Below, one piece after another: positions 19,351-56,744 of a stretch of 64,000 nucleotides of DNA. The notes under the pieces were generated by a model. The model was not told the DNA's origin. It was given only the letters and a program-made list of their open reading frames with translations, and ran no database searches. Origin of the DNA: Isoetes taiwanensis (lineage: Eukaryota > Streptophyta > Lycopodiopsida > Isoetales > Isoetaceae). The position numbers and the translations under genes were made by a program. Position 1 is the stretch's first letter; the number at the start of each line of letters is the position of its first letter. The stretch spans positions 5,553,727-5,617,726 of the forward strand of contig JAJEKV010000006.1 in the NCBI GenBank assembly GCA_021234155.1. Reading direction: 5' to 3'.

Positions 19351-19968
19351 AGTGTATAATTCTCAGGATTCTGAATGAGCAAGTGAGTAAGGATCCTGCT
19401 CTAGCACAAAGCACCTATCCTTAATGTAGTGCCATGGCAGAATTATAACCATTGGATATTCTGTGGATGGAATCCCAACCCTAAGGGTTGCTCCCATGGT
19501 TCGAAAACAACGGAGTTCGGCCCCTAAAATCCGCCCACTTTCCTTAAATTCCAGTCATACCAAAAAAATTTCGGCAATAAAATATAAAATATCCGATAAA
19601 ATACACTAAAAAATGCACTAACCTATAACATATGTTTTTTATTCAGGGAGCCTCAAATACCAAGCGGCATTTTTAATGGCTAGGTATATTGATATTTTTG
19701 AGCCCCGGTTGCTCCACATCACTTACCACATTAAATACTATCTATCTATTAATAAGAGTAAATTTAATTTCACCCTCAGACATGCATGCGTGCACAGGTA
19801 ATGCAGAGGTCAGAAATTCCGTCAGCAACAAAAATAGATAAGGATCAAGCATAGGCTGCCAATTGGATATTTGTTCTAGTGACACGTCTAACTGCAAATA
19901 GAAAATGTTCTTGTAAGAAGGGTTTTGAATAGGGCTCCCTGTCATAGTGAAGGAAAATAAAGATCAGA
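19351..19968. other. Upstream region of the PP2C gene
   Basis: No coding sequence recognised. Short tracts of AT-rich and pyrimidine-rich sequence lie here; the promoter and 5' UTR of the PP2C gene are probably included, but no clear TATA box or start site could be singled out. Confidence 0.4.
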
Positions 19969-21239
19969 ATGCAAGAAGGCATGGAGAATGTGACGGAGGA
20001 AATCAAGGCATTGCACAAAACTTCAGGTGCGCCAGAAAGGATACGAGACTGCCATGAACAGGGCAAAGGCCAAAGCCGAGAGCTTCAACCACAGGTACTC
20101 TTTGGATATTGTCTTATGAGAGGTGCATTACGGACTTCTATGGAAGATGTCCACCTTGCAGAATTTAGGATTGTAAATGGAGCAGAAGTAGGCATTTTTG
20201 GGGTCTTTGATGGCCATGGTGGAAAAACTGTGGCCTCTTATTTGCAGCACCGTTTGTTTGATAATATATTTCAAGAGGGTGGCTTTAGGTCAGATCCTGT
20301 GGGTGCTACAAGAGACGGCTATTTGCTTACAGATGAGAAACTTCTTGATAACCCTCATTTTAATCCTGGAGCTGGTAGCACTGCTGTAACTGCTATGATA
20401 ATTGAGCATGGTGCTAGACTTGTTGTTGCTAATATTGGTGATGCCAGAGCTGTTCTTTGTAAGGATGGCGTTGCAGTCCAGCTATCTGTTGATCATTATT
20501 CTGGCAATCCAAAAGAACGCGCAAATGTTGAGCTTAAGGGGGGGCTTGTCACTACTATACCAGGTCTGTTTTCTTGTCTTTTTAGTAATACATTTCTATG
20601 CTCTGTTTCATTTTTATTTTATTTCTTGTGGACCTGATCAAATTATAAATCATATTGGATGGAGTGTTGTCCTTTTTCAGTTTATGCTGTCATTCCTTTT
20701 CTGTTCCATGATGTATATGCATTCTTTGATCAGGTACACAACTGCTAATGTTTTTGGAAATGCTTCGACTTCTTTCTAGGCAGAAGGATTCTTTGATCAT
20801 GCATATGATTATAGGCTTTTATCTGTGCAAAGTTTCAATTTATTTTTTGTGTCCCTTTCTTAGATTGGAGCATGGTTTTTATGTTGATGTGTACTGGAAA
20901 GGTTAGTGCATGCTCATGGAAAAGGACAACAATATTGCAGGTGATATCCCTAGAGTAGATGGTGTGTTGTCAGTGGCAAGGGCATTTGGGGACAAATCAT
21001 TGAAGGAACATATGAGTGCCAAGCCAGATGTGTGTGATTATGTAGTCGATCTTTCATGCCAGCTTCTAATTCTTGCAAGTAATGGGATATGGGATTGTGT
21101 ATCCAACCAAGAAGCAGTGGATCTCATAAAGGACATAGCAGATCCCATGGATGCAGCAACTATACTTGTTCGTGAAGCCCGCAGGAGGAGGAGCAGTGAT
21201 GACATAGCTTGCATTGTTATCCGTTTTCGGGAGCTGTAA
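19969..21239 (+). CDS. Protein phosphatase 2C (PP2C family), two exons
   Basis: PP2C enzymes are Mn/Mg-dependent serine/threonine phosphatases. Exon 1 is 19969-20563, intron 20564-20940 (GT...AG, 377 bp) and exon 2 is 20941-21239, ending in TAA; the joined product is 297 residues. Family landmarks in order: SMEDVHLAEF (57-66), GVFDGHGGK (78-86), GSTAVTAMI (136-144), VVANIGDARAVL (152-163), PRVDGVLSVARAFGDKSLK (202-220) and SSDDIACIVIRF (283-294). The length is normal for a compact plant PP2C. One oddity: the metal-binding Asp of the usual ASDGLWD motif is Asn here (ASNGIWD, N246), and the DHxP motif reads DHYS. Both changes could lower or abolish activity. An upstream non-coding exon is possible. 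The start was chosen as the first ATG of the open frame. Confidence 0.9.
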
Positions 21240-21879: not shown

Positions 21880-22334
21880 TTACGGTTCAGATGGCTTGGC
21901 AGTTTATATATAATCATCCTACGCTGCAGGTTGTTCTTGATCCTGTGCATCGATCCGAGTTCTTACGGCTCACATTGCTTTGAGACATATCCTACGATGC
22001 ACATGGCCTTAGGAATTATATGTATTAGATCCTACAGTCCAAGTTGTTCTTGATCCTGATCGTCGATCCACGATCCTAGGGGTCATGTTGCTTTAGATTT
22101 TTACACGTGGCGCGATCTCGACCCTTGATCAGGTCCAAGATCCTATGGCTCATGTTGAATGCTCGGCACTTAAGGGGAGGCTTTGAAAATTTTTATGTTG
22201 TTTGAGAGATTTGAACCCTAATCATTGCCTTCCAAGCCCCCCCATTCTAACCATTGAAGTAAGCATTAATTCAAAGAAACATTAATGTTTTATATATACT
22301 TAAGGGTAATGACTAATTAAGATAAAATAAAATA
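21880..22334. repeat. Composite repeat unit 1: GATCC-rich repeats and tRNA-like part
   Basis: About 21900-22150 consists of diverged 110-125-base repeats with ATCCTACG, GATCCGAG and GGCTCA(C/T)GTTGC words. At 22198-22262, read on the minus strand, a tRNA-like segment follows (CAATGGTTAGAATG, then GGGTTCAAATCTC). A TTCTAGAA array comes next. The same order recurs at 37530-38580, so this is the first of two units. Confidence 0.75.
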
Positions 22335-22501
22335 TAATGTTCTAGATGGTTCTAGAAAATTCTAGAATGTTCTAGAAAGCTCTAGAATGTTCTAGAAAGC
22401 TCTAGAATTTTCTAGATAGTTCTAGAATGCTCTAGAAAGTTTCAGAATGTTCTAGAAAGCTCTAGAATTTTCTAGATAGTTCTAGAATGCTCTAGAAAGT
22501 T
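22335..22501. repeat. TTCTAGAA array A, 10-bp period (heat-shock-element-like)
   Basis: For about 160 bases TCTAGA recurs every 10 bases almost without exception. I count seven exact TTCTAGAA words; the rest differ by one base. The array has the form GAA-nn-TTC-nn-GAA, which is the heat-shock-element consensus of alternating inverted nGAAn units. It is continuous with the array at 36633, from which it was separated by the LINE insertion; GAATGCTCTAGAAAGTT at 22485-22501 is the LINE target-site duplication. Confidence 0.9.
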
Positions 22502-22700
22502 TTTTTTTCTTTTGAAGGATGAAATTAAGTAATATTAATATAAAGTAAGTACAAGAAGAGCGATACTAGGGTACCCCTGCCCAAACATGAGCGAGCACCC
22601 ACACAGCACATATACCTACCTACGACTCAGGGGATAAATCTGCCAATGCTATCTACAATGAAAAGGGTCCTTTCCCAAACGACCGCCTTAAACTGCTCCT

Positions 22701-25549
22701 TCAGAGATATAATTTGTACCTTAACTGCGGGATCAAAACCTGGGGCTGTATCTCCTCATTCCGGAAGACCTTCATGCGCCGACGCTTCCAAATAAGCCAC
22801 ACTAACCACGCTTTACACAAATGGAAGGCCAGACTCTGGGGCAGGGACCACCCACTAGGATACACCCCAACAACACACATTTGACTCGGCGAGGTGTGAA
22901 AGAGGCGCTGGACCCACCGCCATGCCGGGCCGGATGTCTGCTTGAGAGAGAAACATGCAATGTTCGGGGGTCTCACTACGCAGGCACCACACATTGGGCA
23001 CACGTCCCGACCGGGTTGATCCTGTGCACACTGCGTGTTCACCCTCAAGGACCAGTGCACTATCGCCATAGCAAAGACCCGAATCTTAGGGGGCGAGATT
23101 GGGTTCCACACCCACCTCAAATGTTGCTCCAGTCATCTCCTGGCACCTGGAGACTCCAGCCGTCCGAGGGAGGCAGCTCATCCTGAATAGCCAAAAGCTC
23201 ATAGCAGGACTTCACGAAATTCGAGGGGTCAACTTTCGGATGACAACTCCACACCCGCCCTGACGCCTGTGGGGGATTCAGCGGTAGAGCATTAGCCACC
23301 CGTGCCCAAATGGCACAGTCCCGCCTGCCAGCCGAACTTGTGGGAGAAAAGTTGCCGGGGGTGCAAGCTGCCCGGGCAATATACCACTCCCCACCGCCGG
23401 GAACCCCACACATCGCCCCCATCTACGCTAGACCCGGGGATCGACGGATGCGGCCAGCACTAGAGGTGCTGCACCCGGGCCAATCGGGATCCACCATGGT
23501 GATGCCTCTAACTGAATACAACTGGCGGCGTCAATGGCAAAATGGGGCTGACCCGCCCAGTGCGCAAGAGTCCCTTCGGAGACGGAGAGGCATTAACATA
23601 TGGCCTCGATATCGCCAAATAACGCCAAAGGAAGCCGCATGCACGCGGCGCTTATGGAAAACAATCGAGTGAGATAGCGACTGATGAAGTAAGACCATGC
23701 CCGGGGAATCAAGCACATTCTCCAGGATCGCAAACACGAACTTGGACAATAGGACCTTGCCATGGAGCGAGAGATCCAAGAAACCGACTCCCCCGCAGCT
23801 TTGGGGCGCACACATTTCCACCAGGCCACTTTAACAACTGCCCCCTCCTCATTTCCAATCCATACAAAGTTACGAACCATTGAGGAAATTTCCCGAACCT
23901 TGCTCTCTGGCGCCAGGATAATGGACGCCATATAAATATGCGTGGAGCACAAAACGGACTTCGCCACTGTGACCCTACCAGCCATGGAAAGCTTCCCCCC
24001 CCCTTCCACCAGTTGAGCCGCAGCCCCACCAGAATGTCCTCCCAAATGCCTGCCGCCGAAATGTCGATGCCAAACGGGATCCCCAAAAGCCTAGAGCATG
24101 TGCCCTGCAGCTGCGTCCGCCAAGGAAATTGGGATACGACCACGGGCATGGGATCCGCCGCTGGCCATAATGTCGATCACTTCGACCAATTCATAAGACA
24201 ACCCGACGCAAGAGAGAATGCGTCCAGCAACTCTTTCGTATTTAACAGATTCCTTTCATCCGCCTGTTGGAAAAGGAAAGTGTCATCAGTATACTGACTC
24301 CTAATCTGCTGTGACCCATCTGCCATCCTCAGCCCCTCCACAACACCCGCCTCCACAGCCGAGATCAAGAACTGCGAGAGGGCCTCTGCCACGATGGTAA
24401 ATAGGAAGGGCGCCAACGGACATCCCTGGCGAACTTCGCGTCTCACACTAAAGACCGGCGATGACTCACCGTGACATAGGACAGTGGCTCTGGCCGACGT
24501 TAAGAGCTTCAGAGTCACTTCTGTAAAGCTCTCCCCACACCCAAAGTCGAGCATCATCCTCTTCAGAAAGTCCCACCGAACACTATCATAGGCCTTTGCA
24601 AAGTCCAACTTCAAGTACATTATCTGCTGACCCGTTCTGCGTGCCTAGTGAATACCCTCGAATGCCGCCACGACATTATTGAGAATGTGCCTGCCCGGAA
24701 TGAAACCAGACTGCATGGAGCAAATAGCCTCCTTCAAGACTGCTTGCAAACGAAGCGAGAGGGCCTTCGCAATAATCAGACCGAAAGAAGCGCAGCCTTC
24801 TTGGACTCATCCGCTGCAATGTAGCGCAGTATCTCCCTCTCCCGCACCCCATCAGACGGCTGGGACCTGAGGGCTTCCAATTCGCGATACAATGCCTCCA
24901 ACGCCTCCCGCTCTTGGCGTGTCTTCCGACTTCCCCATGACTTGGCAAATGCCTTGACCTCAGCTAGGGCCCTCACCATCCCTGACATCCCAAAGTTATC
25001 GCGAAAGGTGCGGAACCATATCTGCTGGCAACCCCAAGAGAAATCAGCATCCTTGAGGTAAGCGGTGTTCAGCTTGAAGACCGTGCGCGCCGGCCTGACT
25101 GCACTCAAGCCCTGGGAAATTAGCTGAGGAAAGTGATCAGAGACCGCGGTGGTCAAAATGTTCTTGCGCTTGAGCAGAGGCGCCCGGTCCGCTACTAGGG
25201 TGTTAGGATAGCATCTGTCATGCCGAGCATACGCCCGTCCGGCCCCGGTCCACTGGTTACACCAAGTAAATGTGGAGTCGTCCGACAACTCCACCAACTG
25301 CCCGGAGTCCAGCAGTTTTACCCATTCCCCCCGCTCGAAGCCCTGTACCACTTCCGCCGCTCTGCCACACCTGTCCTGAGTGGTCTCTACCATGTTGAAA
25401 TCGCCCAACAGCAGCCAAGCCACACCAGCTCCCAGGGCTGCCAGCTTGTGCCTCAAGGACGCCCACAATGCCCCTCTCTGCCGCGCAGTATTATGAACAT
25501 AGACATTCACAATCCCCCACTCATGCGGACCCTCTCGCCACTTGATAAT
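22701..25549 (-). pseudogene. LINE ORF2, second part: endonuclease end, reverse transcriptase, zinc-binding end
   Basis: From 25549 downward the endonuclease continues (GIVNVYVHN, then LLGDFNMVE, then SDHFPQ, all family landmarks). Then LIIAKALSLRLQAVL and SGFIPGRHILNNVV begin the reverse transcriptase directly after ADESKKAALLS. The usual stretch of 100 or more residues between them is missing, so an internal deletion is likely near 24780. A TAG (24645-24647) replaces the Trp expected before ARR. The polymerase goes on with LDFAKAYDSVRWDFL and the catalytic box QYTDDTFLF, where YADD would be usual. After frame changes near 24170 and 23600-23850 the C-terminal PPKIRVFAMAIVH and CPMCGAC region completes it. 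Not functional. Confidence 0.9.
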
Positions 25550-25562
25550 CACAAGACCCCCA

Positions 25563-28500
25563 AAATTGAATTAGTATGATCTTTTTCTAATGCTTTCGTA
25601 GTAAAAACCAACTCCTAAAATCAATACCGGTATGTGGGCCAAAAAGTTTACAAATCATGTCTAGTTATACCATATAGTTCATCAATGCAGTTCAGTAACA
25701 TGACATACGAATAGTATTTCTTCACATGGTATTGAAAGATGATAATTTATAGCTAGTTTTTATGACAACTTGAATATATGATATGTGCTACTGCTTAATT
25801 TATCACGTTTATCGGAATGATATTTGATCACATCTATTATCCTTGGTTTATTGACATTGTAATTTTACGTGCATATTTAGTATGATATTTTACAGCGATT
25901 AATCATCTTTGTTATTTTAGTGTATTATTATTATAGTATTTTATAGTGACTAATTATCAATAATAAAACTATGCTTGGTTTAGATATACCAGTATGATTT
26001 TCCTTCCATGATAATGTCAAAAACTAGTGCGTTTTTTTTTTTCATGATATCAACCTTACTGTGCTTCATGTGGCACGTTTGGTAATACGATAAGAGACCA
26101 TAGTATTCAACCTTCATGTATTAGCGTAATAAAATTTGAGGGTTCATGATTTTTTTTACGTGATTCTAAATTGTGATGTCTCCTAATTAATTAGTATTAT
26201 TTCAGCACATGGTTCATTTGAGCTTATTATCGATATTTTCGGTATTTTGATTACAAAAACAAAGACTACAGAAGACCAAGATGCTCAATTTTTTCCATTG
26301 AATTTTGATATAAAAGTACAATAATATCAGGCATACACCTCTTTCCATAATTTGGAAATAGTATACTTGAGTTGTCATTTTTTTATGGATGAACATTATG
26401 TATAGATTTATTCCACAACAATACCCTCTTGCTTGGAGTAAACACATTATCATTCTCCTTCATCATCGGCTCGTCACATGGCAGCTACGAGCACCTAAAA
26501 TATAAGAGCAGAATAAAACATCGTTTGGATAATTATTCCCCATCTTTGCATTCTGCTATTCCGCATATATCCTTCTAATAAGTTTTTCAAGGAGTGGAAC
26601 ATATCTCTCTGATGAACAGGCAATTAAGATACCATAAAGGAAAATGCCTTGAATTGAGATAAACATTTACACATATATACTGAAATAGTATATACCGAAA
26701 TAGTAGAGAGATATTCCCCGACCATTTCTCTTGCAAATGCAGGGGTGCAATATTGCTAATTTTATTGATAAATTCTTCAATTGTCTTTAAGCCTAGTAGT
26801 GAGGTCCTTAAACCGTCTAATGTTCCGAGAATCTCTTGAATAATAACTTTGTCAAGCTTAAGGGCTTAACCAGTAAAGCTTAAGCAGATTGCATATCATT
26901 TACGGAAAGTAGATCTTTGGCATATTTAGTCCTAAGCTTTGGTGGATCTTGGAAATGAAGAAGCATCCTTCGTCGAGCAGGTGAAACATGAATTCACAAA
27001 CATGCCCTATGTTGTCCAAAAAAATACACATCGGACTATAATGCCCGAATCAAACAAAGCAAAGTGGAACAGATTTCACGTCCTTTGTGATAGTCTCTTC
27101 CAATAAGGAGATTGCTTGTGCTTTTCCATCCTAGCCATGTCTTCCATTATATATTCTGTTGTATGACCTATGTTTGAATTATGGAAAAATCCTGCAATAA
27201 AAAAAAGAAGGAAAATCAGTATTGTCAAAAATATCACTGTATTTTATTAAATGATGAAAATGCCCGTGTGCATGTGTCCAAGAAACAAACAACTTGCAGT
27301 CTAAGCACTATAGTCTAAGCACTACTTAAGCCGAACTTAAAGCTTTGAGCATAGCAGTCTAAGAAATGCTTTGGCTAGCTCATTTATATGAAGATTTAGG
27401 GGCTAGGGACGTTACTAAGCGTATTATGACAATCATGGTACGGTTTCTCATGCTATAAATCATAAATGGCATCCAAAAAGTCATTGCGAACAGGTTCTAT
27501 GCATTAGGCTTGCCGAGGATGTAGGTGATGTTTAGAGATTACAATGCAGACCAATTTGTTATATAACGGATGCAAAGTCCTTTCTTGCGACACGGCGAGA
27601 TCAAAGCAAGGGCGTGGCCATAAATTGAACTATAATAGCAAGTTCTAAAAAGCAATGCAACCATCGCAGATCCAAGTAATGCAAACCAAGCAGATCCAAC
27701 TAATGCACGAGCGAGGAAAGAACATGAATGATTGCAATGCCCATGATATTGCAACAACTAATGAGATGATCACCAATACAACAATCAAAACAGAATTCAG
27801 TAAGAGTCATAAAAAATCAAACTCACCTGGTAGAATTGAGATCGTTTATGTTCTCACAAGCTGCAGAAAGGCCATAAGCATTATTTCTGGTTATACAATT
27901 TCTTTGCCCATCCAGAGCTTCTCCAGCTTCAACTAATTCTCGCATCCATGAATCGGCTCAAGTTCCCTTAATCTGCTATTGAGAATGTATTCAAAAGACA
28001 GAAAACAAAGGATTACGTTCTAGATTATATAGCAACTAAACACATACTTTTATGTATTGCAGATCCTAGTGAGGCAAAATCCTTTAAAAGCTTGGCATTT
28101 GATAACCCACACAATACAAAATTCAAGAATAGTTGGTTCCGTTCTTTGGGACACTTGTTCATTTGAGCGGGGGTCTTCTTCCCCATATGAATCCCGGTTC
28201 TTGATTTGTTTGAAGAGCAAGAGCAGGTGCAGCAAGAGATATTTTCTAAAAGATCCATACTTATTCAAGTGTTATCAATAATGATGCAGTCATAGTCCGA
28301 GAAAGCCGAATATATATTCTCAAGCAAATTTTTGGTGGATTTTACCCAAAGAGAAACAATTCAAATGGCCAAAAGATGTGCAATGAGAAGATACCTCGTT
28401 CATCCCTCGCATCTGCAAACTCCATCAAGAAATAACATGGTGGTTTCTGTTGCAAAACGAATTCAAGCATCCAATCCATGCTCGTCACTGTTCGATGCAG

Positions 28501-30224: not shown

Positions 30225-30540
30225 ACGTTAAAGGGTGCCAAGGTTGGACGGGTCTCTGGCTGCCTAGAAGGTGCTTAGAATCCAATTTGGGGACTCAGAA
30301 AGGCAGGCAGAGCACCTTTTGGGCGTTTGGGGTTTTCGGGGCTAGAGAGAGATTGTAAACCCTAGAGAGAGAAAGCCCGAAAGGGGCAAATCAAGGGGGT
30401 CTATGCAAGGGCAGTGAGGGCGCGATGCTGAGAGCAATAGTGGGACCCAAAACAGTCCAAAACAATTCAAAGCAATCCAAAACTTGGTACCTACGGCCGA
30501 TGCTGGGACCGGCCATGTTTGTTTGGGCATTCATGTTCAA
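30225..30540 (-). promoter_or_regulatory. Element leader shared with 56345-56745
   Basis: On the minus strand this contains CTCTCTAGGGTTTACAATCT, AAAAGGTGCTCTG, GAGTCCCCAAATTGGATTC and GCAGCCAGAGACC, all present on the plus strand near 56400-56525 in the same order. It directly precedes a frame starting MARED. I infer that it is the transcribed leader or promoter region of a mobile element. Confidence 0.6.
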
Positions 30541-36555: not shown

Positions 36556-36632
36556 CAGATCCGCTCAGATCAGCGCTTGAGTCCGCCGCCTAGGTTCCGC
36601 CGCCATCCTTACCATCAGAACCATCAGAATCC

Positions 36633-37529
36633 GAATGCTCTAGAAAGTTCCAGAATATCCTAAAAAATCTTTAAAAGTTTTAGAATATAAAAGAATCTAG
36701 AGGAAATCTAAGGAAATCTTTCTAGAAAGTTCCAGAATGTTATAGAAAGTTCTAGAATATTCTCTAAAGAGATCATTTTAGAAAGTTTCAAATTATTCTA
36801 GTAAGTTCTAGAATGTTGTAGAAAGTTCTAGAAAGGTCTAGAATATAAGGGAATCTACGAGAATGTAAGGGAATTTACGGGATTGTAAAGGAATCTAAGG
36901 AAATACTTCCAGAAAGTTCTAAGATGTTCTAAAAGTTTCAGAATGTTCTTAAAAGTTCTAGAATGTTCTAGAATAATAAAGGAGTCTAGGAGAATCTAAA
37001 TGAGTCTAAGAAAATCTTCTAAAATATAAGGGAATCTAAGAAAATGTTTATAAGTCTAAAGGAATCTCTTAAAATCTAAGGGAAACTAAGGGAATCTTTA
37101 TAAAATCTACAAGAATCTAAAGGAATCTTGATGAAAGCTTAGAGTATTTAGATGAATCTTCATAGAATCTCTTTGAATTTTATATAATGTAAGGGAATCT
37201 AGGGCAAACTAGGGAGTCTACGGGAATCTAAAAGAATCTAAGCAAATATTGATAAAATCTTACAGAACCCCAAGGAAATCTTAGAGAATCTCATAAAATC
37301 AAAGAGAATATAAGGGAATCTTCATAGAATGTAAGAATCTTATAAAATCTAAGGGAATCCAAGGGAGTCTAAAGAGATTTAACGTAATCTCCATAAAAGC
37401 TTTGAAAATCTAGAAGAATTTTGATGGAAATCTTGACATCCGACCAAACTTCTAGAATGTTCTAAAAAGCTCTAGATAGTTTTAGAAAGTTTTGGAATAT
37501 TCTTGATTGTTTTAGAATGTTGAAAATAG
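36633..37529. repeat. TTCTAGAA/GAATCT array B (heat-shock-element-like)
   Basis: Continuation of array A beyond the LINE. The first 400 bases keep AGTTCTAGAATGTTCTAGAA-type words. The rest drifts to (A/G)GGAATCTAA with GAATCT recurring at about 10-base spacing. Words such as GGAATCTAAGGGAATCT keep direct GAA units 10 bases apart while losing the inverted TTC. No gene lies here. Confidence 0.85.
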
Positions 37530-38290
37530 TCGTGTATAAGCACCTATATATCTATATCTATAACATATATATGTTCTTATGTTTGTCGCGCTTATCCGAC
37601 CGTCCGTTCGAGATCCTATGGCTTACGTGGCTTTGGCACATATCCTATGGCCCTGATGGCTTGGGAGTTTCTATATAGATTCTATATAGACGATCCTACG
37701 GTCCAGGTTGATTTGATCCTGACTGCCGGTCCGAGATCCTACGACTCACGTGACTTGGGGACGTATCCTACGGCCTAAATGGCTTGGGAGTTTCTATATA
37801 GATTCTATATAGACGATCCAACGGTCCAGATCGATCTGATCTCGATCGTTGATCCGAGATCGTATGACTCACGTTGCTTAGAGAAATATCCTATGGTGCA
37901 CATGGCTTTGGGAATTGTATGTAATCGATCCTACGGTCCAGATTATTTTCGATCTTGATCGTTGATCCGAGATCCTACGGCTCATGTTGCTTGGGTTATG
38001 GTGCACATGGCTTTGTGAATTATATTGCTTTAGTTTTTTGCCACATGGGGCGATCTCAGCCCTTGATTAGGTCCAAAATCCAACGGTTCGCGTTGAATGC
38101 CTGGCCCATTAGGAGAGGCTTTTGAAAATTTTATGGTATTGAGGGGATTTTAACCTTGGTCATTGCCCTCCAAACCCTCCATTCCAACCACTAAACTAAA
38201 CATTGATTCATTAAAATAATTACTGTTTTAAATATACTTAAGGGTTTCAAATATACTTAAGGGTAATAATCTAATTAAGATAAAATAAAG
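37530..38290. repeat. Composite repeat unit 2: GATCC-rich repeats and tRNA-like part
   Basis: Four diverged copies of a 110-125-base unit (GATCCTACGGTCCAG..., GATCCGAGATCCTACG..., GGCTTGGGAGTTTCTATATA) fill 37590-38090. On the minus strand 38141-38215 a tRNA-like segment follows (AGTGGTTGGAATGG, then AAGGTTAAAATCCCC), then ATTAAGATAAAATAAAGTAT and array C. Apart from copy number this matches unit 1. Confidence 0.8.
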
Positions 38291-38580
38291 TATAATATTC
38301 TATAGTTCTAGAAAGTTCTATAATGTCCTGGAAGGCTCTAAAAAGCTCTAGAAAGTTCTAGAATCTTCTACATAGTTCTAGAACTAGAAAGTTCCAGAAT
38401 ATTTTAGAAAGTTCCAAAAAGTTTTAGAATATAAGAGAATTTAGGGAGAATCTAAGAGAATTCTTCTAGAAAGTTCCAAAATTTTGTAGAAAGTTCATGA
38501 AAGGGAATCTACGGAATCCTTCTAGAAAGTTCCAAATTGTTCTAGTAAGTTCTAGAATGTTTGAGGAAGTTCTATACAAA
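38291..38580. repeat. TTCTAGAA array C (heat-shock-element-like)
   Basis: AGTTCTAGAAAGTTCTA words at 10-base spacing, more decayed than array A, ending next to a LINE fragment at 38595. Confidence 0.8.
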
Positions 38581-38594
38581 TTTTGCCTTATCTA

Positions 38595-39005
38595 ATTTTT
38601 TTTTTTGAAGAACGTGTTTTACTTCATATTATACACTCAAAATATTACAAAGTACTTCCAGAACCATATTGGAATTTTAATACGATCAGGCCAATTGGAG
38701 ATCTGAAAGCAATTATACAACTTCTTACGAATTTCTTGAAGCACCACCTGAGAAGAAATACGCTTATCATAAAAGACCTTTCTTCGCCTTCGCTTCCATA
38801 CACTCCATATTAGCCAAGACTTTACCATGTGAAATGCAATCCTTTTAGAAGCAGTCCACTGATTTGGATAAATACCCAAAAGAAAGTGCTGACTATCCAA
38901 AGATACTCCAAAAAGAGAATGCAGCCAGGACCTAAGACTACTCAGCTCTGCACACAAATATAAACAGTGCTCCAATGTTTCAATGCACCGCTCACAATGG
39001 ATTCC
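38595..39005 (-). mobile_element. 5'-truncated L1-type LINE, 3' end only
   Basis: On the minus strand the frame (38975-38637) carries CERCIETLEHCLYLCAEL, then WTASKRIAFHMVKSWLIWSVWKRRRRKVFYDK. This matches the C-terminal zinc-binding part of the LINE at 22701-23120 (SLAFHLCKAWLVWLIWKRRRMKVF). A poly(A), seen as T at 38598-38607, marks its 3' end. No target-site duplication was found. Confidence 0.85.
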
Positions 39006-39335
39006 GATGAGGTGGAGATGCTATGTGGATAGGCTAGGAGGGCAGGAAATTAAAGGCTGTTGGCTTCATTGGGCTGGTGTGCTAAAAAAAAAAAACCTTC
39101 TTAGGCATTTAAGCTTAATATTATTAATTTAGACACAGGTTTTTGCAAGGCCAAGTTTGTCTTTAGGCTTAGATTTTTGCAAGGTCAAATTTTTAGGCTT
39201 TCAAAGTCTTAGTGCCATTCAACATGTAAAGAAATGGCAAAGTAGTGGAATGTTACATATCTATATCAGTTTGTATGTGCAATGCTTAAGAAAAAAAGAG
39301 CATTAGACTTTTTCTTTACATTTGAATGACACGCT
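39006..39335. other. No gene recognised
   Basis: Short AT-rich spacer. TTTTTGCAAGG(C/T)CAA with a TTTAGGCTT word occurs twice near 39137-39200. Confidence 0.5.
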
Positions 39336-40980
39336 ATGTGTGGGAGCCTGAAGGAAGCACACACCAGTCTATGTAATGTTTTAGACCGGGATGTTGTGAC
39401 ATGTCGTATAGTGATCTCAGGTTATGCTAAGAGTGATGAAACCAAACTTGCTTTTGATTGTTTTGAAGAAATGGTTTTGGAAGGCATAATGCCAAACAAA
39501 CTCACATTTCTGAGCATCTTACATGCATGTAGTAGTATGCAAGACGCAAAGTGTGGAAAGCCTTATCACAATTGGATTATTAAATTCCAACTTTCACTCG
39601 CATCTTGTCTTGGAGAATACACTTGTGGATATGTACGTAAAACGTATGTGCATGTATGTGTAGTTATCCACAACGAGGTTATCAAAATTGGGTTGCAATA
39701 TGACATTGTAGTGGGGAGCTGTCTTGTTGATATATATGCCAAGTGTGGAAGCCTAGAAGAAGCATATGCAGTTTTTGAAGTTTTGTCAAATCCAAACATT
39801 ATAACCTGGAATATATTAATCTCTTGGTATGCCAAGCATGGCAAAGGTGCCAATGCATTTGAATGTTTTTACAAAATGCAAGAAGATGGTATCAAGCCTG
39901 ATAAAGTCACATTTTTAAATATCTCAAAAGCATGTATTGCCTTGGTAGATATAAACCTTGCAAGGTTTATTTACATTAATCATTGCTCATAAACCACACT
40001 TGGATATTGCTGTGGGAAATACTCTTGTTGATGTTTATGCCAAATGTTCGAGTTTGGAACATTGTCTCATGGGGTTCAATGATCGCAGCTGGTGCTCATG
40101 AGGAACGCATCCTTCTTGGCTTGAAACATGTTGAGCTGATGGAACAAGAAGGCATGAGACCAAATACAGTTATTTATTGCAGCATATTGAAAGCATGTGC
40201 AAGAAATGGATCTATAGAGCAGGGATGAATTATTCATGAGCATATTATGAACTGTGGAGGTTATGCTGACATTATGATTGGCAATAACCTTGTTCATATG
40301 TATGGCAAATGTGGCTTTCTAGAAGAGGCACATAAAATTTTCAGCAAACAGCAGGAGAATGTTGCATTATGGGAGGCAATGATAACAGCTTGTGTTTATG
40401 ATGTTAAAAGCTCTCTTGTTATTTATTATTTTCAAGAGATGCAAGAGGAGGGTTTGAAAGCAGATCCAAATGCGTTCCTAAGCATTCTGATAGCACGTGG
40501 CAGCACACAAGCACTAGAGCATGGTAGGCTTATTCATGACCTGCTTATTAGCAGAGGACTACTTACTGATGTGGCATTGCAGAATGCCGTAATTGATATG
40601 TATGCTATGTGTGGGAGCCTAAAGGAAGCACGCAACAGTCTATGTAATGTTTTAGACCGGGATGTTGTGACATGGAGTATAGTGATTTCAGGTTATGCTA
40701 AGAGTCATGAAACCAAACTTGCTTTTGATTGTTTTGAAGAAATGGTTTTGGAATGCCAAACAAAGTCACATTTCTGAGCATCTTACATGCATGTAGTAGT
40801 ATGCAAGACGCAAAGCGTGGAAAGCTTCATCACAGTTGGATTATTAAATTCCAACTTCATTTGCATCTTGTCTTGGGGAACACACTTGTGGATATGTACC
40901 TAAAATGTATGTGCATGGGAGAAGCTCATGAAGTTTTTGTATCACTGCCGGATGAAATGTGGTTTCCTGGACTGCATTGA
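39336..40980 (+). pseudogene. PPR protein gene fragment with internal duplication
   Basis: PPR proteins are RNA-binding organelle factors built of about 35-residue repeats. Typical repeats are visible: CLVDIYAKCGSLEEAYAVFEV, then NIITWNILISWYAKHGKG, then MQEDGIKPDKVTFLNISKAC, and LVHMYGKCGFLEEAHKIF, suggesting the PLS class common in land plants. It needs three frames, with a frame change near 39985, a TGA at 40226-40228 and another frame change near 40750. The segment from 39336 to about 39600 recurs at about 40604-40860 (MCGSLKEA(H/R), then NVLDRDVVT). The second copy lacks seven bases (GGCATAA) that the first keeps at about 39483, which causes the last frameshift. No start, targeting peptide or DYW domain is seen. 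Confidence 0.9.
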
Positions 40981-49386: not shown

Positions 49387-49530
49387 CATAGTCTTCGAAT
49401 CTATAGGAATCTTCATGAAATCTAGAGGAATTTAGGAGAACCTAAATAAAATATTGAAGAATCTAAAGGAATCTCAAGAGAATCATAAAGAATGTATAGA
49501 ATCTCAGGAGAATCTTTAAGAATCTAGGAC
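49387..49530. repeat. GAATCT array D
   Basis: GGAATCT, AGAATCT and AGGAGAATC words recur at about 10-base spacing next to the LTR, like the decayed part of array B. Confidence 0.65.
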
Positions 49531-53505: not shown

Positions 53506-55635
53506 ATGACTACTGTGGAGGTTGTAGTGCATCAATTTGATGCCCGGAAGCCTGCAAGTTTCTCTGCAGCTGCTCCCGTCTCTGTGTCTGGACGTACTGG
53601 CCGCCGCGCATTCTCCCTTGATGGCCTTCATAATCCTTGCATCCAAATTCCTGAGAAATATGAACTCTTCCATACCCGCCCTACCTTCCAGCCTCTCCCT
53701 CCCATTTCCTTGGAGCCTCCAATTAACAGCTCTCCCTCTTCCCCTGAGAACCATGTTCCTGCTTGCTTGCCTGCTGGCAGGTATTTTGATGCTCTCTAGG
53801 GTCCTGAGCTAGATGTCCTTAAGGTATGTGTGTGTATATATATAACATTACACTCTCCCATTAGTGTTAGTAGAGTCAATTTTGTTTAACTAAAAGTAGG
53901 TGAGTGACCTTTGCACTACGGTTTTTGTGGGCCATGTTGTTTTGGAGTGTGTGTTCATGCAACATAGTCATAGAGGTGGTAGAGGGGGTTATTTAAATGT
54001 AGTCACAATCTCTGACCATGCCAATATTCTGCCTTGTAAGTCCTTGGTGATGCCGATCATGCTAGTGCACCATCCAAGAATCTATATATGTGATAAGTTA
54101 ATATAGAATTCCTTCTTTATACAATTCGCTTTCCTTTTATTCACATAAGTTGTTCATTATGCTTAAAAACATAGAAGCCATTTCGCAATTGCAATTGCGA
54201 CCCAAATAGAGAATATGGAAACGTAAGTATCAATAACTTTAAGCCTTGTTTCTTTTAATTTCACCACCACCTAAATGGTTAGTGCGTAGTTATTATGCTT
54301 GCTTAGTGTTTTCAATTGGTCTTTAGTGGGTAGATTAAAATGATCTTCTTTTTAACATGATTCTCTGTTTACATGTTCACAGGATTATGAGGACATACTA
54401 CTACCCGTTGACAAGAAATGGCCATTTCTTCTAAGGTTCCCAATAAGTACATTTGGTATAGCACTTGGATTGGGAAGCCAAGCTATTTTATGGAAGTTGA
54501 TGGCTGTCTCTACATCAATGGCTTTTCTTCGTGTTCCCTTACAAGTAAATTGCATCCTATGGATCATGGCATTGACTTCATACACCCTCATATTTATCAC
54601 TTATGCTTTAAAAGCATTGTTCTACTTTGAAGCAGTGCGTCGTGAATATTTCCATCCAGTTAGAATCAACTACTTTTTTGCACCTTCTATTGCAGCGATG
54701 TTTCTGGCAATAGGAGTGCCTCCTGTCATTAGTAAATCAATCCATCCAATAATATGGTGCATATTCATGGCACCTTTATTTATTTTAGAGATAAAGATAT
54801 ACGGCCAATGGTTGTCTAGAGGAGAACGAAGGTTGTCAAAAGTTGCAAACCCCACTACCCAGATGTCTGTTGTCGGAAACTTTGTTGGAGCCACGTTAGG
54901 GGCATCTGTTGGATTTAAGGAGGCTGCATTATTCTTTTGGGCTATTGGAGCAGCACATTATTTGGTCGTATTTGTCACACTTTATCAAAGGCTGCCTACA
55001 AATGAATCTATTTCTAAAGATCTCCATCCAGTTTTCTTCTTGTTTATTGCTGCACCTAGCTCGGCATCTATATCATGGCAAATGATTACTGGTGATTTTG
55101 GCAATGTAGCAAAAGTAGTATATTTTGTTGCCATGTTCCTACTTATACTATTGGTGAGCCAATATATCCTTTTCTTCCTTATACCCGTCCATGGAAGCTT
55201 ACTAACCATTGTTATCTCCATAGGTTGCACGACTTAATCTCTTTTTGGGATTTAGGTATATTCTCTCCCTTCTCCTCCCCGTCCTCCTCCTTGAATGCCC
55301 TAACTCAAAGGCTAGATATTTGTTTCAGGTTTTCGGTAGCATGGTGGGCGTACACATTCCCTTTATCTGCAATGTCGTGTGCCTCTCTTCACTATTCCAA
55401 TAAAGTGAATAACTACTACACACAAATAATAACACTAGTAATATCATTTACATCAACAATAGTTGTCATGACATTGTTGATTTGCACTTTATCCCATGCC
55501 TTTATATCGAGAAATTTATTCCCAAATGATATGGCAATTGCTATTACCGAAAAGAGGCGTACTAAGAAGACTAAAGTTGAAGAAGATAAGAGTCATGGAT
55601 CACATGATTGTAACATTTCAATATCTAAAAAGTAA
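53506..55635 (+). CDS. SLAC1-type slow anion channel homolog, with an in-frame TAG in exon 1
   Basis: SLAC1/SLAH proteins are plasma-membrane anion channels of the TehA fold with ten membrane helices. Exons: 53506-53823, 54383-55153, 55224-55255 (32 bases) and 55329-55635, all GT-AG and in frame, 475 codons. Family matches include AGRYFDAL, GPELDVLK, DILLPVDKKWPFLLRFPI, YFEAVRREYFHPVR, LEIKIYGQWLSRGERRLSKV, NPTTQMSVVGNFVGA, AHYLVVFVTLYQRLPTNES, RFSVAWWAYTFP and LFPNDMAIAITEKR. The whole channel core and C-terminus are open. The exception is codon 98, TAG at 53797-53799, between FDAL and GPEL where family members have a sense codon. The gene is either freshly disabled, a sequencing error, or translated from a downstream start that would lose part of the first helix. 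Confidence 0.88.
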
Positions 55636-56344: not shown

Positions 56345-56744
56345 CTAGCGCCCTCACTGCCCTTGCATAGAGCCCCCTTGATTTGCCCCTTTCTGGCTTT
56401 CTCTCTCTAGGGTTTACAATCTCTCTCTAGCCCCAAAACCCCCAAACCCCCAAAAGGTGCTCTGACCGCGATTTTGAGTCCCCAAATTGGATTCTAAGCA
56501 CCCTTTTCGCAGCCAGAGACCTCTCAAACTTTGGAACCCCCAAACCCCCAAAAGGTGCTCGACCACGATTTTGAGTCCCCAAATTGGATTCTCGAGCACC
56601 CTTTTCGCGAGCCGAGACCCCTCAAACTTTGAACCCCCCAAAACCCCCAAACCCCCAAAAGGTGCTCTGACCGCGATTTTGAGTCCCCAAATTGGATTCT
56701 GAGCACCCTTTTCGCAGCCAGAGACCCTTCAAACTTTGGAAGTC
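56345..56744 (+). repeat. Triplicated element leader
   Basis: A unit of about 95-105 bases occurs three times (about 56445, 56535, 56640). It runs CCCCCAAACCCCCAAAAGGT, then GCTC, CGATTTTGAGTCCCCAAATT, GGATTCT, AGCACCCTTTTCGC and CAAACTTTG. The first copy and the sequence before it match the leader at 30225-30450 (minus strand), which has a single copy. The C-runs give the minus strand several closely spaced G-tracts. The ORF at 56745 follows at once, so this is probably a promoter or 5' UTR that has grown by tandem duplication. Confidence 0.85.

Follow-up and report, generated by a model that had tools for sequence, protein, structure and literature searches.

Perfect-type heat shock element arrays upstream of a tRNA-like promoter core suggest heat-switched repeats in Isoetes taiwanensis

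The array and its surroundings in the window

The window analysed here, a stretch of 64,000 nucleotides from contig JAJEKV010000006.1 of the quillwort Isoetes taiwanensis, carries pieces of host genes for a PP2C phosphatase (19951-20637), a PPR protein (39330-39992) and an SLAC1-type channel (54356-55237), together with a 98-bp tandem repeat at 56437-56741 that has an inverted match 26 kb away at 30233-30423. A LINE-like element occupies 22502-25570 on the minus strand and includes a reverse transcriptase piece (PF00078, 24177-24644, minus strand). Its A-rich 3' end adjoins, at 22502, a 10-bp array with the appearance of a heat shock element (HSE), which is the subject of this study (Table 1). 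No repeat match was found on the far side of the LINE-like element, whose target duplication was sought as well, with no 11- or 12-base word in common. A second A-rich run, at 38590-38620, adjoins the degenerate array of another copy of the repeat, a comparable one being found next to the 3' end of locus L008. It is possible that LINEs prefer to insert at these repeats.

A preliminary description of this DNA had reported a strict 10-bp array with seven exact copies of TTCTAGAA, built from alternating GAA and TTC sites that match the HSE consensus. The periodicity is borne out by Tandem Repeats Finder, which detects a period of 10 at 22339-22501 (16.3 copies, 73% matches) with further rows at periods of 20, 30 and 60, and TCTAGA is present in strict register in 15 of the 16 ten-base units. 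All seven copies of TTCTAGAA were recovered (22350-22487). The whole window holds 22 of them, whereas 100 dinucleotide shuffles average 1.38 and never reach this number. The motif also fits the HSE of plant heat shock factors (HSFs), given as TTCtaGAAnnTTCt from HSFA2/HSFA3 ChIP peaks (PMC10230730; this and the other papers cited are drawn on as excerpts).

The claimed alternation of GAA and TTC holds for one perfect run of six half-sites but is interrupted elsewhere, with 9 of the 32 half-sites lost. TTC is intact in 10 of the 16 units and GAA in 13; units start with CTC in five cases and with TTT in one, GAT is found in three, and the remaining exact alternating runs are no longer than three. 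A perfect-type HSE is defined by inverted nGAAn motifs, three or four in a row at 5-bp spacing, and the window contains a run of six. The suggested comparison with shuffled sequence favours the array, since no run of more than three half-sites arose in 50 shuffles of the window or in 1,000 shuffles of the array. We conclude that the window array is an HSE in a partly decayed state.

The feature exceeds the interval 22335-22501 that was first described. Repeat sequence extends down to approximately 21881. The window also holds a more degenerate second copy at approximately 36630-38590, and the two copies share 71% identity over 637 bases. Another degenerate array, composed of GAATCTAAAGGAATCT units, is located at 49397-49526, apart from both element copies.

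Table 1. Features of the two element copies, in window coordinates
Feature	Position	Strand	Details
TTCTAGAAnn 10-bp array, perfect-type HSE	22339-22501	-	16 units; 23 of 32 half-sites intact
Longest exact alternating run	22350-22377	.	six TTC/GAA half-sites
TATA-like block, first copy	22287-22306	-	CCCTTAAGTATATATAAAAC; conserved form CCCTTAAGTATATTTGAAAC
A-box region, decayed	22251-22262	-	TTACTTCAATGG; most aligned copies TTGGTCTAGTGG
B-box-like sequence	22207-22217	-	GGTTCAAATCT; most aligned copies GGTTCRAATCC
TTTT right after B box, possible Pol III terminator	22185-22197	-	CATAAAAATTTTC
Portion of element 3' body	21881-22184	-	GTAGGATC-type repeats, resembling dispersed copies
Second copy, adjoining degenerate 10-bp-periodic array	36630-37520	-	perfect type and TTC-every-10 type mixed
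Second copy, degenerate HSE array	38304-38580	-
Second copy, TATA-like block	38225-38263	-	two in tandem
Second copy, A-box-like and B-box-like sequences and TTTT	38124-38199	-
Second copy, 3' body	37540-38123	-	end near 37551 with ACAAACATAAGAACATATATAT

A dispersed repeat with the array upstream of A and B boxes

Read along the minus strand of the window, the element comprises a 10-bp-periodic region, the perfect-type HSE array, a TATA-like block, an A box, a B box and TTTT. A young unit of 1,371 bases (locus L006) begins with ACAAGAAATTTAAT and continues with approximately 700 bp of 10-bp-periodic sequence, of which one part has TTC every 10 bases and the other is of the perfect type, TTCTAGAAnn. 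These are followed by the conserved CCCTTAAGTATATTTGAAAC, the A box, the B box, TTTT, GTAGGATC repeats and the 3' end ACAAACATAAGAACATATATA. The perfect-type array sits in the middle of this unit rather than at both ends, and the A box lies approximately 890 bp inside it. Among the copies, the tRNA-like core is mostly found 70-150 bp past the last HSE motif. TTC at every tenth base is the spacing that defines step-type HSEs (PMC4552642), and a 1.7-kb flank of L006 contains 89 TTC pairs at a lag of 10, compared with 11.7 expected, with few GAA. GAA-poor arrays with the same step-type spacing were also seen at 36630-37520 and in the flank of L011.

All genome-wide counts cover 1,658,258,908 bases in 1,110 contigs. 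The flank at 21900-22339 yielded 2,506 first-look candidates (40 of them scored), and the young 1,371-base unit yielded 4,007 (39 scored). At least 41 rows, query included, span 1,200 or more of the 1,371 bases at 92-100% identity, and L006 and L008 are 99.2% identical over 1,373 bases. Outside the young unit the flanks diverge, usually within TA-rich DNA. The family is spread across many contigs, with tandem copies in some loci (L011-L014) and a tail-to-tail pair in L012. The window array is therefore one part of a dispersed repeat that measures approximately 1.37 kb in its young subfamily. Because the unit is dispersed in many near-identical copies, we infer that it is mobile; no consistent target-site duplication was seen by eye in a few copies.

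A genome-wide count of arrays had been proposed as a check. Sites matching TTCTAGAAnnTTCTAGAA number 5,979, compared with 68 at an 11-bp register (reversed controls 9 and 11), and a triple motif occurs 972 times against 1. A 10-bp register is needed by an HSE, yet it is equally left behind by tandem duplication of a 10-bp unit.

The association of the array with the A and B boxes extends well beyond the window. Exact A-box and B-box pairs at tRNA-like spacing occur 794+768 times in the genome (reversed control 0), and among the pairs listed at least one looks by eye like a true tRNA gene. TTCTAGAA is found 90-120 bp upstream of such a pair 704+534 times (1,238; reversed control 0), whereas the mirror arrangement downstream occurs 11+15 times (26; control 0), one element being able to contribute more than one TTCTAGAA to either count.

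Forty loci were then scored that had been picked by their A and B boxes only (odd rows 1-79 of those listed from 1,562 matches; low-numbered contigs, with 7 of the 40 on C102). Six alternating half-sites with a score of at least 15/18 are present upstream in 35 of the 40, the exceptions being L046, L047, L052, L053 and L062. Four or more adjacent exact motifs are present in 33 loci and three or more in 36, and the longest exact run comprises four to seven motifs in 32. Among 1,000 dinucleotide shuffles, none scored 15/18 or more, none had four or more adjacent motifs and nine had three. A further control of 1,000 shuffles likewise gave none at 15/18 or above, and in a per-locus control with 30 single-base shuffles each the maximum reached 15/18 in two of the 40 loci (L047 and L057). 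For run length, a null drawn from the opening 380 bases of the loci as cut and one built on the true upstream stretch had the same outcome. TTTT lies 10-45 bp past the B box in 36 of the 40 loci versus 331 of 1,000 shuffles. When a loose set of TATA-like words is scored, 28 of the 40 match, versus 91 of 1,000 shuffles.

Twelve longer loci (L004-L015) were also read for polarity. Boxes were found in ten, and upstream HSE scores are 16-18 in nine of these; in L014 the chosen box pair lies at the edge of the locus and the upstream score is 9. Downstream of the boxes, scores stay at 10-11 of 18, which is background, in all ten. When triple-motif sites were considered, 29 of the 46 listed (overlapping rows merged) fall within 600 bp of an A/B-box site. 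The remaining 17 lie farther away, and some are perhaps degenerate copies, L016 being an example.

Element class and known systems

The preliminary description had linked such arrays to the long terminal repeats (LTRs) of plant retroelements. Their recurrence in a dispersed mobile-type repeat, at a promoter-like position, agrees with part of this proposal, but LTR identity is not supported. An LTR retrotransposon such as ONSEN, which would have direct long terminal repeats whether or not gag/pol lies between them, was rejected on self-comparison of the 1,371-base unit of L006, which lacks an end-joining repeat in either orientation. Reading frames longer than 88 codons are absent from five copies. 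The A and B boxes stand at the spacing seen in tRNA-derived SINEs, but a SINE proper was rejected because the ~890 bp before the A box belong to the repeated unit, so that this box is not at the 5' end. Alu copies, unlike the quillwort unit, begin at their Pol III core.

The order of TATA-like block, A box, B box and TTTT is that of tRNA genes, but the tRNA models recognised no cloverleaf: ARAGORN found no tRNA in 16 loci, and in 14 loci Rfam gave none with an E value of 1 or less. One weak match to the Rfam tmRNA model covers the boxes of L045, with 10.7 bits against a cut-off of 47. Seventeen Rfam rows with E of 0.0025-0.88 were set aside, all being below gathering scores and several falling on the palindromic array. 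Helitrons have 5' TC and 3' CTRR ends, the latter with a hairpin. Such ends were not seen by eye at ACAAGAAATTTAAT and GAACATATATATCAGATAT, where the borders of the unit run through TA-rich DNA and are not base-exact. MITEs inserted into (TA)n, such as rice Micron, have flanking (TA)n and terminal inverted repeats. Several quillwort copies have TA-rich flanks, one unit examined for it has no end-joining inverted repeat, and no consistent target duplication was seen by eye.

Repeats that bear HSEs are already known from nematodes, Brassicaceae and humans. On our best reading, the quillwort element would work most like the HSE-Helitrons of Caenorhabditis and ONSEN-type elements, with its tRNA-like Pol-III-type core as the difference. 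The excerpted Caenorhabditis study describes 953 HSE-containing Helitrons with more than 10,000 HSEs, including eight copies with more than 100 (PMC6927752). These elements are similarly dispersed, mostly non-autonomous and rich in HSEs that are partly tandem. However, HSF-1 binding and a heat response were demonstrated there, and the quillwort element differs in having a tRNA-like A/B-box core after the array and no TC/CTRR ends by eye.

ONSEN/COPIA78 and other heat-responsive COPIA elements of Brassicaceae resemble it as plant elements whose promoter carries alternating nGAAn motifs of the 4P class (PMC3907296, PMC5059998). In the excerpts at hand, the 4P class (four or more motifs) accompanies the strongest heat response among Brassicaceae COPIA elements and step spacing is mostly insufficient (PMC5059998), and the ONSEN 4P site is said to stem from duplication of nTTCnnGAAn (PMC3907296, PMC5059998). 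All these elements are LTR retrotransposons, however, unlike the quillwort unit with its lack of terminal repeats and of long reading frames, and they differ as well from the quillwort loci with longest exact runs of four to seven motifs (32 of 40). HSF sites in high-copy repeats are also reported, in the parts of the sources available, for Alu SINEs (PMC3334603) and human satellite III (PMC9032817). Alus further have a Pol III promoter (PMC3334603), a putative feature of the quillwort repeat, but the latter includes the long segment before its A box; satellite III is pericentric (PMC9032817), whereas the quillwort family is dispersed over many contigs.

Possible roles of the array and the host heat shock genes

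Starting from the observed array, its polarity, its promoter-like anatomy and its dispersal in many near-identical copies, we hypothesize that this mobile-type repeat is non-autonomous and that the array serves as its upstream regulatory part, forming an HSF-coupled promoter with a tRNA-like Pol-III-type core. We consider this reading about evenly balanced between right and wrong. HSF trimers would bind the alternating nGAAn runs under heat stress, and the bound array would activate transcription from the TATA-like block and the tRNA-like A/B-box core. Expression of the element, and perhaps its mobilisation, would thereby be tied to the host heat response. HSF binding, heat induction, the polymerase used and any benefit to the element are all predictions from sequence. 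The runs of at least four adjacent exact motifs, which correspond to the 4P class, and the presence of HSF genes in the host argue for this reading, whereas the decayed A box of the window copy, the failure of the tRNA models to recognise the core, the step-spaced, GAA-poor parts of some arrays and the short exact runs (three at most) in the host small heat shock protein loci read argue against it. Thousands of perfect-type arrays, many in dispersed repeats upstream of a tRNA-like promoter, suggest that these are heat-switched repeats.

Within the array, extra constraint on the HSE core columns is not significant (variability 0.153 versus 0.206 for other array columns, p = 0.10), and shifting the register by one base gives a larger column difference than the HSE register does. 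With a variability of 0.109, the proximal block is better conserved than the array. In this test 38 rows were aligned, with the unit register set by L015, and four were dropped: L040 and L053, whose aligned stretch has no array, L043, from another subfamily, and the indel-rich W2. This outcome makes a neutral passenger array a serious rival, which we hold to be quite possible, if somewhat doubtful; a neutral satellite was also what the preliminary description had named as a refutation. Slippage inside the repeat would then have produced a 10-bp minisatellite, copied along with the repeat, that owes its HSE-like look to descent from one palindromic unit and has no HSF role. This rival is favoured by the absence of special conservation at HSE positions, by the window copy's higher-order periods of 20, 30 and 60 bp, a sign of tandem duplication, and by related arrays that keep TTC while being poor in GAA. 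The confinement of the arrays to one side of the A and B boxes and the survival of perfect runs of four or more in 33 of the 40 sampled loci speak for an HSF role instead, but both also follow from common descent, and therefore neither is decisive.

Two other roles for the array were weighed. Because its units are palindromic, an array transcript would form a long hairpin, and minus-strand RNA of 22335-22501 is predicted to fold at -62.8 kcal/mol (shuffle mean -31.5, z = -8.6, with none of 200 shuffles as good), so a role in feeding small-RNA silencing of the family can be envisaged. We judge this very unlikely, as such folding is expected from any array of palindromic units and the position upstream of a promoter-like core would be left unexplained. 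In plants, the transposases of CACTA and hAT elements recognise short motifs that occur repeatedly, and the array might bind a protein that moves the element rather than HSF. The repeated short motifs in a repeat of unassigned class and the TA-rich ends of several copies are consistent with this idea, but the mid-unit position of the perfect-type array and the match of its motif to HSE grammar make it highly improbable.

Returning to the HSF-coupled promoter, a broader version would hold that, in a repeat superfamily, perfect HSE arrays have been fused to a tRNA-like Pol III core, giving more than 1,000 candidate units for heat-switched transcription by Pol III (or by a mix of Pol II and III). 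Their perfect HSEs might outnumber those of host heat-shock promoters, and the units might act as a heat-timed source of transcripts and a sink for HSF. We regard this extension as rather unlikely. Among HSE-bearing repeats, the quillwort family would stand out by its thousands of perfect sites and by its uncommon partner, the tRNA-like promoter core. It lets one test directly whether repeats benefit from being part of the heat response, and whether a Pol III-type unit can be driven by HSF. Neither the family nor a plant repeat that joins an HSE array to a tRNA-like core is listed in the titles and opening parts of abstracts that were searched, most subscription papers being outside reach.

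The host genome contains 16 matches to the HSF DNA-binding domain and 76 to HSP20, and 14 of the small heat shock protein (sHSP) loci were read as a positive control, albeit a weak one. None has an exact run of more than three motifs, and runs of three occur only in L029 and L030. Near-HSEs number 9, compared with 3-10 in ten shuffles, when the first 1.5 kb are taken as cut with minus-strand genes unturned. Once the loci were oriented and the first exon was located, 6 of the 14, from related genes, proved to have HSE-like sites: those scoring 13-14/18 start 145-159 bp before the inferred ATG, a count made without a null. HSE matches are thus better in the repeats than in the host promoters read.
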